Shown piece by piece: positions 11,751-15,945 of a stretch of DNA of 64,000 bases. Position 1 is the stretch's first letter. Every line of letters begins with the position of its first letter. Where the stretch lies: contig NZ_JAMTCN010000006.1 in NCBI RefSeq assembly GCF_024171865.1, forward strand, positions 62,001 through 126,000. Reading direction: 5' to 3'. Below the pieces are notes generated by a model. The model searched no databases. It was not told the origin of the DNA and saw only the letters and a program-made list of their open reading frames with translations. The stretch comes from Prauserella aidingensis (GTDB taxonomy: Bacteria > Actinomycetota > Actinomycetes > Mycobacteriales > Pseudonocardiaceae). A program made the position numbers and the translations under genes.

Positions 11751-12689
11751 ATGCGCGCACGACGTGGTCGCGCACCGCACGACTGGGACCAGGCGTCCCG
11801 GGAGGTGGCGGACGCGTACTTTCCCCACGAGCTCCGGCCGCTGGGTGGTGGCCGCGAGCCGCGACTGACGCTGCGCACCCTCGACCTCGGCCCGGTGCTG
11901 GTCGGGCACGTCGGCTGGGGCGCCGACGTCGGCATCGAGTGCGACTATCCGGGCGCCTACGAGGTGAACCTGCCGCTCACGGGTCACCTGGAGAGCCGGG
12001 GCAGGACCGGGCCGGTGTCGTCGGTGCCCGGGCAGGGCACGATCTTCCGCGCCGACACGCCGTCGCTGATCAGCCACTGGGACGCCACCTGCACCGTGCT
12101 GGGCGTCAAGTTCGACAGCGCGTGGCTCGACCGCGAGTCGGAACGGATCATCGGCACCGATCGGGCGGGACTGCGCGCGGAGCTCCCCGACCAGTTGCAA
12201 CTCGATGCGGGACGTGCGCACGCCTGGCGGCAGGTCGTGGGCAGTCTCGCCGCGCATCTGCAGAACCCCGAGCTATTCTCCGACGTCGGGCCGGTGCGGG
12301 AGCAGCTCGCCGGCGCGGTCGCCGCGGGGTTCCTCCTCGCGAGCTGCCCCGATTCGGGCGAAGGTGCCCCCGCGCGACCGCGCTCGATCCGCAGGCTGCT
12401 CGACGAGCTGCACGAGGACCCCGGCCGGGCGTGGACGGCGGGCGAGATGGCGACCGTCGCGGGCACGACGGCACGGCGGCTGCAGGAAGGGTTTCGCCGA
12501 TGGGTCGGGACCACGCCCACGGAGTACCTGACGGACGTGCGCCTGCGTCGCGCGCACGCCGACCTGGTCGGGCCGGCCGCGCCGACGGTCAGCGACGTCG
12601 CGGCGCGCTGGGGTTTCTCCAGTGCCAGCCGGTTCGCCGCGGCGTATCGCAAGCGCTACGGCAGGCCGCCGTCGCAGGCGCGGGACTGA
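11751..12689 (+). CDS. gcoR: AraC family transcriptional regulator of the gco operon
   Basis: 312 residues. The N-terminal half resembles the AraC_binding_2 beta-barrel (about residues 20-190) and the C-terminal about 100 residues form the double HTH of the AraC family: AGEMATVAGTTARRLQEGF and VSDVAARWGFSSASRFAAAYRKRYG. It is divergent from gcoA, matching the arrangement known for Amycolatopsis gcoA-gcoB, so it most likely activates the operon in response to a methoxy-aromatic inducer (inference). The ATG at 11751 lies eight bases after TACGGT (11737-11742) and lacks a Shine-Dalgarno sequence, consistent with a leaderless transcript. A GTG at 11727 upstream of the -10 is rejected for that reason. 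Confidence 0.9.
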   Translation: MRARRGRAPHDWDQASREVADAYFPHELRPLGGGREPRLTLRTLDLGPVLVGHVGWGADVGIECDYPGAYEVNLPLTGHLESRGRTGPVSSVPGQGTIFRADTPSLISHWDATCTVLGVKFDSAWLDRESERIIGTDRAGLRAELPDQLQLDAGRAHAWRQVVGSLAAHLQNPELFSDVGPVREQLAGAVAAGFLLASCPDSGEGAPARPRSIRRLLDELHEDPGRAWTAGEMATVAGTTARRLQEGFRRWVGTTPTEYLTDVRLRRAHADLVGPAAPTVSDVAARWGFSSASRFAAAYRKRYGRPPSQARD

Positions 12690-12744
12690 CGCGTCGACGC
12701 GTAGGCTGCGGCCGACCATCCCCCGGAACGTTCGAGGAGTGACG

Positions 12745-12780
12745 ATGACCCGCGCCGATTCCCGCACCGGACTGCGCTGA
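12745..12780 (+). CDS. 11-codon upstream ORF coupled to the NUDIX gene
   Basis: A good Shine-Dalgarno sequence (GAGGAG) precedes an ATG that encodes MTRADSRTGLR and then stops. Its TGA shares its last base with the ATG of the NUDIX gene (TGATG). The NUDIX gene has no other clear ribosome-binding site, so this mini-cistron probably loads ribosomes for it by coupling. Three of its eleven codons are CGC (Arg), so a translation-sensing role is possible but unproven. A TAGGCT -10 at 12702-12707 would serve both. Confidence 0.5.
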   Translation: MTRADSRTGLR

Positions 12781-13220
12781 TGGCGAGCGGCAACGGCACC
12801 GTCGGAGTCGGCGTCGTGGTGCGTGACGCCCACGAACGCGTGTTGCTCGGGCTGCGCGACAAGGCAGGCGAACCGACCGTGTGGTGCCTGCCCGGTGGCG
12901 CGGTCGACCCCGGCGAGAGTTTCGAACGCGCCGCCGCACGCGAACTCGCCGAGGAGACCGGACTCGTCGCGGGATCCGTGGACGTCGCGCACCTCGTGCT
13001 CTCGCCCGAACCGGGCGTCACTGCCACCGCCGTGGCACTCGCCCGCGACGTCCGCGGCGAACCACAGGTGCTCGAACCGCAGGTGTTCCGCACCTGGGAA
13101 TGGTTCCCCGGCGACGCGCTGCCGGACGCGCTGTTCCCCGCGACCCGCCTGGCGCTCGACGCGCTGGCCACGGGGTCGGCGCCGGACGCGGCCGCGTCCT
13201 ACCACCTCGAACGTGTCTAG
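12780..13220 (+). CDS. NUDIX hydrolase
   Basis: 146 residues with a complete Nudix box, GGAVDPGESFERAAARELAEETG, read from about residue 39 (GX5EX7REUXEEXGU with all catalytic glutamates present). It hydrolyses nucleoside diphosphates linked to another moiety; the exact substrate is not predictable. The start overlaps the stop of an 11-codon upstream ORF. Its TAG stop (13218-13220) lies inside a CTAG that is also the reverse-strand stop of the first 57-bp repeat. This suggests that before an insertion the NUDIX gene and the acyl-CoA oxidase/dehydrogenase gene were directly convergent with overlapping stops. Confidence 0.88.
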   Translation: MASGNGTVGVGVVVRDAHERVLLGLRDKAGEPTVWCLPGGAVDPGESFERAAARELAEETGLVAGSVDVAHLVLSPEPGVTATAVALARDVRGEPQVLEPQVFRTWEWFPGDALPDALFPATRLALDALATGSAPDAAASYHLERV

Positions 13221-13273
13221 TCCGCGATGATCGGGGCGGCCAGGAACCGCTCCGGGACGGCGAACGCGTCGAC
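13217..13273. repeat. 57-bp direct repeat, left copy
   Basis: Identical over 57 bp to 14059-14115. On the minus strand it encodes the last 18 codons and the TAG stop of the acyl-CoA dehydrogenase-like gene, but here it is detached from that gene. It is best explained as the displaced original 3' end left beside the NUDIX gene after an insertion, equivalent to an att site. Confidence 0.9.
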
Positions 13274-13296
13274 AGCGGACCGGGATGCGCTATAGT
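13269..13296 (+). promoter_or_regulatory. Promoter spanning the left repeat/islet junction
   Basis: TCGACA (13269-13274) and TATAGT (13291-13296) with a 16-bp spacer form one of the best sigma-70-type promoters in the window. The first five bases of the -35 lie in the 57-bp repeat and the sixth base is islet sequence, so the promoter is created at the junction. It reads rightward into the islet. Confidence 0.55.
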
Positions 13297-13302
13297 AGAG
13301 AC

Positions 13303-13395
13303 GCAACTTGGTTGCGACGAGCTGCCAGGCGTTCGAGGACGTGACTGGAAGTAAGGGCCCGGGCCCCCGCGGGATAGCGGGACCGGGCCCTTGCG
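13303..13395 (+). ncRNA. Putative short transcript ending in a GC-rich hairpin
   Basis: A transcript from the junction promoter would start near 13303, contain a small GCAAC/GTTGC hairpin, and end at the strong stem described separately (13353-13392). No ORF of convincing codon use lies in it. It converges with the islet protein gene and stops about 20 bp before that gene's stop codon. The RNA class is not recognised. It is inferred only from promoter and terminator-like signals. Confidence 0.35.
13353..13392. terminator. GC-rich hairpin at the left of the islet
   Basis: A 10-bp outer stem (AAGGGCCCGG/CCGGGCCCTT) and an inner CCCGC/GCGGG stem form a long hairpin without a T tract. It can terminate both the putative short rightward RNA and the leftward islet gene, whose stop is at 13417. 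Confidence 0.65.
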
Positions 13396-13416
13396 CATCC
13401 CACGGACGCAGCGTTG

Positions 13417-14007
13417 CTAGAGGCGCCGCACGTCGATGACCTGACCGTCGTTCAACACCTCCCAGGGCTCGGGGTCACCGCCCTTCTCGGCGACGGTGAA
13501 GGCACTGACGACGACGTCGGCCACCCACAAGACCGGGTCCGTGCTCTTGCGTGCGAAGTCGATGGTCAACCGGCCGGACAGTTGTCGACGTGACCGGGCG
13601 ACATCGATCGTCTTCCTGTCGTTCTTGTCAGCCTGACTGCGTGATTCCACGACGAGCCGACTCACATACTCGGTGCGCTGCAATGTGGCTGCAGCGGCGG
13701 TCAGCAAGCGTGATCTGCAGTCCTCGAGTTTCTGCGCGGCACTGGTCTGTGTCACGACGATCGTTCCGAGCAACTCCAGCCCGGCGACCTGTTTGGCGAG
13801 CGCCACACGGCGCGCTTGATTCTCATCGGCGAAATGCACAGCTCGCACACCGTCACGGTCAGCCAGCGATTGAAGCTCGCCCCGTATCGCGCGACGTTGG
13901 TCCGCATCGGTCACCACGTTGGCCAAGGCATACACGAACCGGCCGTTGGGCAACTGCGGGAACGACTCGTCAACGTGCGCCCACACATGTCTGTCGGCCG
14001 AGCCCAT
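13417..14007 (-). CDS. DUF3800-like (RNase H-fold) protein of unknown function
   Basis: 196 residues. The N-terminal strand WAHVDESFPQLPNGRFVYALA (read in two parts: WAHVDESF, FVYALANVV) and the C-terminal DPVLWVADVVVSAF resemble the DxE(S) opening and the terminal AD helix of DUF3800-type proteins. These are thought to adopt an RNase H-like fold and often occur on mobile DNA. The central part (VRAVHFADENQARRVALAKQ) carries further acidic residues. It is the only protein gene of the islet and its third codon positions are more A/T-rich than the neighbours. The ATG at 14007 follows an AAGAAGAG Shine-Dalgarno sequence. Nuclease activity is an inference from fold similarity only. Confidence 0.65.
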   Translation of the reverse strand: MGSADRHVWAHVDESFPQLPNGRFVYALANVVTDADQRRAIRGELQSLADRDGVRAVHFADENQARRVALAKQVAGLELLGTIVVTQTSAAQKLEDCRSRLLTAAAATLQRTEYVSRLVVESRSQADKNDRKTIDVARSRRQLSGRLTIDFARKSTDPVLWVADVVVSAFTVAEKGGDPEPWEVLNDGQVIDVRRL

Positions 14008-14058
14008 GACTCTTCTTATCAGGAACAGCCGACAGCCTGATCTTGAGGACTCCCGCCG

Positions 14059-14115
14059 CTAGTCCGCGATGATCGGGGCGGCCAGGAACCGCTCCGGGAC
14101 GGCGAACGCGTCGAC
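14059..14115. repeat. 57-bp direct repeat, right copy
   Basis: This copy is the functional 3' end of the acyl-CoA dehydrogenase-like gene (minus strand, ending PERFLAAPIIAD-stop) and is identical to 13217-13273. By the usual logic of integrative elements, it was brought by the islet and reconstitutes the gene. Confidence 0.9.
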
Positions 14116-15945
14116 GAGTTCACGAGCCCGTGGGCGCAATTCCCCGCACAGCTCGTTCACCGCCGCCACCACGGCTTTGGCGCGCTGGGCCGTGAACCGG
14201 CCGTGCTCGAGAAACCAGGCGCGGTCGGCCTCGATGTTGGCCAGCGCGTAGAGGTCGCACACTCGCTCGAGGAGCGCCTTCTTGTCCGGGTCGGTGCACC
14301 GGTCGATCGCGCCGACGAACGCCTCCAGCACGATCCTGTCGACGTGCACGCGGCCCGCGCGCAGCACATGGTCCTGCGCGCTGTTGAACACCTCGAAACC
14401 GTTGTCACGGCCCGCTTTCCGCAACCGCTTCACGAGACTGTCGAGCACATGCTCCTCCCGGTCCTCGAACGCGGCGATCTGCCAGGCACGGTCGAACAGC
14501 GAGTCCTCGTCGTCCCGGCGCGGGCTCGCGTCCATGATCCGTTCGATCACCTTGCGCGCCGAAGTCCGTTCGATCACGGTGTCGACGACCTGCTCCGCCA
14601 CGAACCGCGCCGTCTCGAGTGGACTGAGGTCCTGCACCTCCTGCTTGTAGCTCGTCAACAGTCCCTTCGCGACGAGCTGCAGCAGCACCGTGTTGTCGCC
14701 CTCGAACGTGGTGAACACGTCGGTGTCGGCCTTGAGCTGCGGCAGGATGTTCTCGGCGAGATATCCCGCGCCGCCGCACGCCTCCCGCGCGGCCTGAATC
14801 GTCGACGTCGCGTGCCAGGTCGCGACCGCCTTCACTCCCGCGGCGTGCGATTCCAGCTCGCGGCGGCTGCGCTCGGCCGGCTCGGCAGTGTGCTGCAGCT
14901 CGTCCAGCGCGGCGACGAGCTCCTCCTGCGCGAAGTGCAGCGCGTACGTCGTCGCGAGCGCGGGCAGGAGTTTCCGCTGGTGGCCGAGGTAGTCCAGCAC
15001 GACCACCTCGTCGTCGGTTCCGGGCCGTTCGAACTGCGTGCGCCGGTCGCCGTAGCGCACCGCGATCGTCAGCGCCCGTTTCGTCGCGCTGCCCGCACTG
15101 CCCGCGACACTGACCCGGCCACGCACCAGCGTGCCGAGCATCGTGAAGAACCGTTTGCCGTCGCTCGAGATCGGGCTGTCGTACGTGCCGTCCGGGGCGA
15201 CGTCGCCGTAGCGGTTCAACAGTGCGGTCCGCGGGACGCGCACCTCGTCGAACGTCAGCCGCCCGTTGTCGACCCCGTTGAGACCGGCCTTGTGGCCGCA
15301 GTCCTCGATCGTCACGCCCGGCATCGCGACACCGGCGTCGTCACGGATCGGCACCAGGAACGCGTGCACCCCGCGACTCTCACCTCCGGTGACGAGCTGG
15401 GCGAACACCGCCGCCATCCGCCCGTCGCGCGCGGCGTTGCCGATGTACTCCTTGCGCGCCGACGCGTCCGGAGTGTGGATCACGAACTCCTCGGCGGCCG
15501 GGTCGTACGTGGCCGTGGTGCGCAGGTTCTGCACGTCCGAGCCGTGGCCGTACTCCGTCATCGCGAAGCACCCGGGCAGCTCCAGGTCCATGATCGAACG
15601 CAGGTACTTCTCGTGGTGCTCACGCGTGCCGAGCAGCTCCACCGCGCCGCCGAACAGTCCCCACTGCACGCCGGCCTTGACCATCAGCGACAGGTCTCCG
15701 AACCCGAGCATCTCGAACGCGACGATCGTCCCGCCGATGTCGCCCTTGCCGCCGTACTCGACGGGGAAACCGAGGTGCGGCCTGCCCGTCGCGGCGAGTT
15801 CGTGCAGCTGCCCGAGCACCTGCGCGCGGTGCTCCTCGCGGCCCAGGCCGTACGCGTCGGGCTGGGCCGTACCCGCCACCTGTGCACGCACGTCACGGCG
15901 GATGCCCGCCCACCGGCCGTCGAGGACGTCTGTCAGGGAGTTCAT
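14059..15945 (-). CDS. Acyl-CoA dehydrogenase/oxidase family protein (ACOX-like)
   Basis: 628 residues, longer than ordinary acyl-CoA dehydrogenases (about 380) and in the range of acyl-CoA oxidases. The dehydrogenase core shows PGCFAMTEYGHGSDVQNLRTTATYD in the middle domain (split here as CFAMTEYGHGSDVQ and LRTTATYD). FAD-domain motifs follow, including RRTQF and ACGGAGYLAENILPQ. A C-terminal ACOX-type helical domain begins around residue 440 (LVAKGLLTSYKQEV). It oxidises acyl-CoA to enoyl-CoA; whether O2 or an electron-transfer flavoprotein is the acceptor cannot be read off. The ATG at 15945 matches the family start. Its last 18 codons are the 57-bp repeat. Confidence 0.88.
   Translation of the reverse strand: MNSLTDVLDGRWAGIRRDVRAQVAGTAQPDAYGLGREEHRAQVLGQLHELAATGRPHLGFPVEYGGKGDIGGTIVAFEMLGFGDLSLMVKAGVQWGLFGGAVELLGTREHHEKYLRSIMDLELPGCFAMTEYGHGSDVQNLRTTATYDPAAEEFVIHTPDASARKEYIGNAARDGRMAAVFAQLVTGGESRGVHAFLVPIRDDAGVAMPGVTIEDCGHKAGLNGVDNGRLTFDEVRVPRTALLNRYGDVAPDGTYDSPISSDGKRFFTMLGTLVRGRVSVAGSAGSATKRALTIAVRYGDRRTQFERPGTDDEVVVLDYLGHQRKLLPALATTYALHFAQEELVAALDELQHTAEPAERSRRELESHAAGVKAVATWHATSTIQAAREACGGAGYLAENILPQLKADTDVFTTFEGDNTVLLQLVAKGLLTSYKQEVQDLSPLETARFVAEQVVDTVIERTSARKVIERIMDASPRRDDEDSLFDRAWQIAAFEDREEHVLDSLVKRLRKAGRDNGFEVFNSAQDHVLRAGRVHVDRIVLEAFVGAIDRCTDPDKKALLERVCDLYALANIEADRAWFLEHGRFTAQRAKAVVAAVNELCGELRPRARELVDAFAVPERFLAAPIIAD

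Follow-up and report, generated by a model that had tools for sequence, protein, structure and literature searches.

Within a 64,000-nucleotide stretch of a Prauserella aidingensis contig (the window), a 785-bp islet bounded by identical 57-bp repeats is better described as a module made of a DUF3800-like gene and a structured RNA, with footprints of insertion around it, than as an att-type integrative element. Our best guess, drawn by analogy, is that the module is a toxin-antitoxin-type system in which the RNA would control a nuclease. The locus contains the following features (positions are those of the window).

12780..13220, plus strand: NUDIX gene, the left neighbour of the islet here and also the left neighbour of the site in the genus member G256
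13217..13273, plus strand: left (detached) repeat copy, the last bases of which contribute to the -35-like box of the putative RNA promoter
13269..13296, plus strand: promoter-like boxes recognised by eye, -35 TCGACA (13269-13274) and -10 TATAGT (13291-13296), with a 16-nt spacer
13274..14058, no strand assigned: the islet, 785 bp, missing in five of seven genus members
13320..13396, plus strand: core of the structured RNA (model R1), with a 5' hairpin, GGAAGU and a 3' terminator-like hairpin
13353..13392, plus strand: 3' hairpin of the RNA, from an inverted-repeat pair and folding
13417..14007, minus strand: DUF3800-like gene that faces the RNA and encodes 196 aa with a predicted RNase HII-like fold
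14059..14115, plus strand: right repeat copy, the final 57 bp of the ACAD gene, from the sequence
14059..15945, minus strand: acyl-CoA dehydrogenase/oxidase-like gene (ACAD), the 3' end of which is duplicated

The two repeat copies around the 785 bp match at 57 of 57 bases and start 842 bp apart, and no other direct-repeat family longer than 22 nt was found in positions 12500-15500. As a preliminary description of this DNA had stated, the right copy alone is attached to its gene, and the left copy begins inside a CTAG that contains the NUDIX stop. The lower GC content claimed for the islet held on one side: in 300-bp windows the islet measures 0.61-0.65 compared to 0.72-0.74 on the left, and the sequence just to the right (0.66-0.72) is nearly as low, so that the contrast is clear on the left side only. 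The islet holds one DUF3800-like ORF together with the structured RNA; the junction promoter and strong hairpin noted previously are both there, as parts of an RNA gene that the earlier description had missed. No terminal inverted-repeat pair of at least 14 nt was found at the two ends of the islet, and the DUF3800-like ORF, the one islet ORF scanned, gave no integrase or recombinase match in Pfam at E ≤ 1. A phage origin of the islet was rejected because the window protein had no match in phages at E ≤ 0.01 and none of 38 pattern stretches was confirmed in viral_contigs, where a PtaRNA1-like pattern also gave nothing.

We searched seven genomes of the genus with positions 12700-15400 and obtained matches in all seven. 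The islet occupies the site in two of them (G000, which is the genome of the window, and G254); the other five are single-copy and islet-free, which upholds the proposal that the islet was inserted. G256 presents an exact empty site, in which the matches stop at 13273 and resume at 14059 with an overlap of 57 bp (one copy); this single copy agrees with the repeat at 54 of 57 bases, and the NUDIX and ACAD stops overlap in a CTAG. G255 and G258 have an MFS gene, then one repeat copy, then ACAD, and G257 and G259 have one diverged copy (47/57) with different sequence leftward; the islet is absent from all four. The order in G254 is MFS gene, left copy, islet, right copy, ACAD, and in G254, G255, and G258 alike the MFS gene lies between the NUDIX gene and the site. 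(Elsewhere in its genome G259, a genus member without the islet, carries a lone RNA of the window's subtype with 81% identity, at C57:15205-15273, locus L115.)

Perfect identity of the repeats had been taken as a sign of recent insertion, a conclusion not supported by comparison with G254, in which the islet and its inner junction are also present. The islet joins the left copy at the identical point in G254 and the window, and the left copy of G254 has a 12-bp internal deletion and differs from the right copy of the same genome. Between G000 and G254, dS is 0.317 for the DUF3800 gene, which is under purifying selection (dN/dS 0.19), 0.292 for ACAD, and 0.474 for NUDIX; for ACAD between G000 and G256 it is 0.244. 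Because the dS of the islet gene is close to that of ACAD, the islet seems to have been here since about the time when the species of G000 and G254 separated, and we infer a single old insertion that either descended vertically, with losses, or spread by recombination. At these rates several differences between the repeats would be expected, and if the insertion is old then the 57/57 identity in the window would need recent homogenisation. Informative sites in ACAD among the five close genomes support G000 with G256 in 22 cases versus G000 with G254 in 7, and for sites exclusive among all seven genomes the counts are 13 versus 1. Three sites within 25 bp past the right repeat place G000 and G254 together among the five close genomes. 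A reading of these three sites as exclusive to G000 and G254 was wrong, since one is also found in G257 and one in G259, so that a co-transferred tract beside the right repeat is only hinted at.

The RNA element first became apparent, when flanks were compared, beyond the stop of most DUF3800 homologues. The stretch 13291-13410 of the window folds at -59.4 kcal/mol (z -3.87), and the 77-nt core scores 70 bits with covariance model R1 in its own genome, a score that is not independent, given that the window RNA is one of the 25 copies used to build the model. In the 25-copy alignment, from which the structure under test was itself derived, 93.6% of cells are paired compared to 82.3% after shuffling (3' hairpin plus inner helices), and 49 double-change cells were counted versus 10.1 in shuffled alignments, with 0 of 500 shuffles as high. 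Further pair types were not above shuffles (67/500), and sliding of the pairing partners lowers all measures. The outer 5' stem, which the consensus missed, forms a mean of 6.24 of its 7 pairs, compared to a maximum of 6.08 among 2000 shuffles (0/2000). Across the family, R1 has matches in 98 of 390 genomes.

In Rfam 15 no family reached its gathering score for the window RNA or for the other stretches scanned, and the Rfam DUF3800 families gave no match for the window RNA (E ≤ 5) or for 19 homologous loci (E ≤ 1). The best Rfam match of the window RNA was PtaRNA1 (RF01811), with an E of 1.2e-4 for 161 bases. The two RNAs are alike in plan, with a UGCCA hairpin, UGGAAGU, a GC-rich hairpin and GCGC, but the 30.5 bits of this match lie below the gathering score of 47, and none of the 19 homologous loci matched PtaRNA1 at E ≤ 1 in a longer scan. 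A plasmid place that carries the PtaRNA1 consensus adjoins an annotated ptaRNA1 family toxin and has no DUF3800 profile match in 6 kb; in the window, the ORF antisense to the RNA (13018-13398) had no match at E ≤ 10 in NCBIfam, where a model for the ptaRNA1 toxin is unconfirmed. In a genome-wide PtaRNA1 search the window place was not listed, and sub-cut-off matches appeared in 7 of 14 control genomes. We rejected membership in PtaRNA1 on the grounds of the sub-threshold score, the result at the 19 loci, and the different partner at the plasmid place.

The window protein itself matches no Pfam family at E ≤ 1, including PF12686. The DUF3800 label given to it previously is valid by way of its relatives, since PF12686 was matched (E ≤ 0.01, best 7.8e-5) by three of the 24 homologues in the alignment; some plasmid homologues are also annotated as DUF3800. 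Homologues are present in 156 of the 390 family genomes. The AlphaFold model of the protein (pLDDT 93.6) has 13 PDB matches at E ≤ 0.001, all of them RNase HII, H2 or H3 entries (TM 0.36-0.56) and the best an RNase HII (E 8.9e-6), and no transposase is found among the best 50 PDB matches listed. Five acidic residues (D13, E14, E121, D130, and D164) do not vary among 24 sequences. The protein is thus predicted from its model to be a nuclease of RNase H fold, closest to RNase HII. Weak matches to PADLOC models of RT-DUF3800_VII-A1 were obtained for 11 of the 24 homologues with one model (best 1e-4) and for 10 with a second (3.1e-5), and the window protein had no match to these models at E ≤ 0.01; that system has a DUF3800-like domain in common with the islet and differs from it in that no reverse-transcriptase-like ORF was noticed by eye in the islet. 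(At L005, L010, and L015 an apparent small helix-turn-helix-type gene, also seen by eye, lies upstream of the DUF3800 gene.)

We counted how often gene and RNA occur together at 67 of the listed gene places and at most, though not all, of the listed RNA places. An RNA convergent with the gene at its stop was found at 43 of the 67 DUF3800 gene places; the association is weaker in distant homologues, the RNAs of which may be beyond the reach of the model. At the best 24 gene places (three of them partial) the RNA is convergent in every case and lies 8-47 nt from the matched end, so that at these places the RNA accompanies the intact genes, the linkage looked for in toxin-antitoxin pairs. Plasmid records with a match number 39, and in the five inspected, which come from five genera (L255-L259, actinobacterial), the RNA adjoins the stop in all five, being convergent in four and on the gene's own strand in one; a ParA gene is located at most 1.6 kb away in two of the five. 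Arrays in the order RNA, DUF3800 gene, RNA, with a period of about 720-810 bp, were seen at L185, L194, L197, L199, L200, and L203, and further such arrays at L205, L207, L209, L210, and L211. Recombination between the paired RNAs of such an array could have left solo RNAs behind.

We sorted a set of 91 RNAs by the state of the accompanying gene, which was counted as intact if one frame covered 150 or more of the 185 profile positions. The gene is intact for 47 of the RNAs, broken for 11, and absent for 33, and 11 of these 33 are the second RNA of an RNA-gene-RNA array. (The set omits L003, L013, L019, L021, and L023, which are duplicates under another identifier; L201, at a contig edge; L008, an intact unit with extra RNAs that occurs under no other identifier; the second RNAs of L007 and L012; the extra RNAs of L185, L197, L203, and L205; and a weak antisense match in L112.) Survival of the RNA is clear when G188 is compared to G187, G013 to G008 and G010, and G063 to G064. 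In G063 the kept RNA stretch is 93% identical and its flanks 97%, with no extra conservation of the RNA. A profile check of 21 genomes (two genus members and others with solo or broken units) found 10 without DUF3800; therefore, protection from a resident partner is not the only reason for keeping the RNA. Part of the asymmetry in survival between RNA and gene may be neutral, because mutations would strike an RNA of 77 nt less often than a gene of 590 bp.

One solo RNA occupies a site common to G201, G339, G361, G352, and G365, which belong to three genera, and in G339 this site is beside argS. (The corresponding loci are L113, L119, L182, L215, and L217.) Three copies of equal length differ from one another by 2-3 mismatches in 76, whereas the surrounding DNA is 73-86% identical, a degree of sequence conservation that points to selection on the RNA itself. 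The profile finds no DUF3800 in four of these genomes and, in the fifth, a DUF3800 in two frames. The solo RNA might serve as an antidote, might give immunity to plasmid copies, or might be an RNA of the host.

Homologues of the islet were also found at other loci, in several cases with flanking duplications. Six sites, including that of the window, can be compared to a readable empty site: a duplication of 27-368 bp flanks the unit at four of them, the fifth is ambiguous, and none is visible at the sixth. The repeats are 27, 50, 57, 94, and 368 bp long and differ in sequence too. Comparison of G064 with the empty G079 reveals a 27-bp repeat (93%), and comparison of G046 with the empty G051 a 50-bp duplication that is partly within a high-copy intergenic repeat of its genus. 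(This intergenic repeat, at L116:3880-4090 in G046, is about 190 bp long and has very many copies in the genus, with 81-97% identity in the rows listed.) In G158, compared to the empty G106, the initial 368 bp of an ECH-family (menB-like) gene have been copied, and the detached copy carries a 156-bp deletion; further genomes in which both flanks are listed and overlapping also read as empty at this site. The 94-bp repeat of G008, compared to G014 and G020, was kept as ambiguous because G010 and G013 (the latter with a broken gene) hold a unit at the same site in which scans found no second repeat, and because G014 has several Imm1-like stretches at the G008-type site. (The genus of G008 has an Imm1-like gene and several related stretches close to the rpsG operon, at L100:4050-5200 and at G014 C44:24216-26585.) G178 has no duplication relative to the empty G177 (76-77% identity), just a 14-bp gap in an alignment that was not read base by base, and at the site in G088 the flanks are not conserved as a whole, leaving no empty site to read. 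Empty sites and duplications around homologues elsewhere were the two observations on which the preliminary description had staked its case for an insertion, and both were made.

When the two flanks of each unit were compared, repeats that are not RNA copies were found in 5 of 47 intact-gene units, at 41-153 bits (the window, G254, G008, G046, and G064). The flank repeats of L193 and L006 are tandem units, and the others above 34 bits are RNA copies or adjoining stretches. In a control with mismatched flank pairs, 6 of 250 exceeded 41 bits and the best without RNA arrays reached 34.6; these six, plus two at 37.4, are ascribed to RNA arrays by position only. Where the duplicated sequence belongs to a gene (ACAD, the neighbour in G064, and the ECH-family gene), the whole gene is on the side of the DUF3800 start and the fragment on the RNA side in three of three cases. 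The unit of G158 matches that of G178 with 82% identity across 686 bp; the match covers the unit alone, and no other match between the loci is listed. By eye, no shared terminal sequence was seen at the ends of four sites, and the repeats of different sites look unrelated, with no common core. The longest exact matches between RNA and flank (6-9 nt at five sites) were not above those in random windows of the same locus, and the idea that the RNA is a guide was rejected because its flank matches are no longer than those.

DUF3800 RNA motifs run from I to XI. Genes for DUF3800 were found earlier to be associated with putative ncRNAs, and an RNase H fold was predicted for the protein (PMC10910872); DUF3800-I and DUF3800-IX are among the DUF3800 RNA motifs in Rfam (RF02969, RF02968; PMC11701678). 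The window RNA resembles these motifs as a covarying structured RNA that adjoins a DUF3800 gene, but matches none of the Rfam DUF3800 covariance models. Insertion footprints and RNA-only survivors are absent from the DUF3800 accounts examined, a statement that concerns those accounts and makes no claim on the whole literature. One structured RNA beside one protein is also the arrangement of AbiF and the RNA RCd22 of Clostridioides difficile, in which the RNA neutralises a toxic protein by direct binding (PMC12373285), although the protein family is different. Homology-facilitated illegitimate recombination combines one homologous join with one illegitimate join (PMC3240628); its application here is by inference, with no donor DNA known for the present insertions. 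An integrase-driven element would have in common with the islet the att-like repeat at a gene end and the empty sites, but no integrase match was found in the ORF scanned and no common core was seen by eye, and the islet is unlike a DDE transposon or insertion sequence in having no terminal inverted repeats of 14 nt or more and in the duplications of 27-368 bp rather than of fixed length.

The reading that we favour, with a little over even confidence, is that of an RNA-controlled, toxin-antitoxin-like nuclease module that enters a site through illegitimate or homology-assisted recombination and leaves it through recombination between the repeats. The islet would be a compact two-gene module, in which an RNA with a 77-nt core, promoter-like boxes and a hairpin terminator faces a convergent DUF3800-like gene. 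A fragment bearing the module would have entered by homology-assisted or end-joining capture with no site-specific recombinase; the duplicated stretch would be a by-product of capture, survival may have been favoured where the neighbouring gene stays whole, and recombination between the repeats would allow clean loss. We are less sure of control of the nuclease by the RNA, which would most likely act as its antidote; this role would explain why an RNA lies beside every close gene relative checked and why conserved RNAs often have no more than a broken gene, or none, beside them.

Other accounts of the insertions differ in what they ask of the module. It is possible, at rather less than an even chance, that the window site reflects nothing beyond an old single insertion, immobile today, followed by several losses through recombination between the repeats or by ancestral polymorphism: the DUF3800 dS is near the ACAD dS for G000 and G254, the inner junction is common to both, the left copy of G254 has its 12-bp deletion, and the three near-repeat sites join the two genomes (weakly, with one exclusive among seven), but this account alone leaves units with duplicated flanks at four other sites unexplained. 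That the DUF3800 nuclease, perhaps with the RNA, drives insertion through paired nicks at variable distance, with fill-in giving duplications of variable length, we regard as improbable; an RNase H-like fold, a gene and RNA that are the shared parts of units at unlinked sites, and duplications of varying length would fit, but the RNA-flank matches of 6-9 nt at five sites are not above random, no conserved ends were seen, the G178 site has no duplication, and the fold is nearest to RNase HII, with transposases absent from the best 50 PDB rows. A proposal that we hold to be quite unlikely is a site-specific integrative element served by a recombinase in trans, with the 57-bp repeats as attL and attR. 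It would account for a repeat that is the 3' end of a gene and restores that gene, and for the filling of an identical site in G000 and G254 despite different left neighbours; set against this, the islet's DUF3800-like ORF has no recombinase match, the repeats elsewhere are unrelated, 27-368 bp long and in one case the 5' part of a gene, no common ends were seen by eye at four sites, and the similar divergence of islet and host gene fits a single insertion long ago better than recurrent targeting of the site. We saw neither an integrase nor a core or ends shared between sites, which makes a standard integrative element unlikely, and the non-autonomous integrative element of the preliminary description, in the integrase/att sense, is not supported, given the lack of common ends seen and duplications that vary between 27 and 368 bp. 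Just as unlikely as the element served in trans, in our estimation, is a recombinase-free class of mobile module, in which the RNase HII-fold DUF3800 protein and its RNA would jointly promote the capture of their own DNA at new sites, with long target duplications of variable length, and would keep their place by addiction, the solo chromosomal RNAs being immunity against incoming plasmid copies.

Concerning function, there is some chance, which we put below that of the old single insertion, that the RNA has nothing to do with toxicity but serves the host as a regulatory or terminator RNA, which the DUF3800 protein processes. The solo RNA at the argS site, present in five genomes of three genera with 2-3 differences in 76, is what such a host RNA might look like, the more so as DUF3800 is missing by profile from four of those genomes and lies in two frames in the fifth; however, the best 24 DUF3800 places all keep a convergent RNA, and four of the five plasmid copies are convergent as well (the fifth being on the gene's strand).

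In the accounts examined, DUF3800 genes and their RNA partners are known by association, with no tested function. Our analysis raises the questions of whether the RNA neutralises the protein, whether the pair stabilises plasmids, and how a module enters with neither a recombinase nor defined ends, and it provides three testable handles: the empty sites, the duplications of variable length, and the RNA-only survivors.
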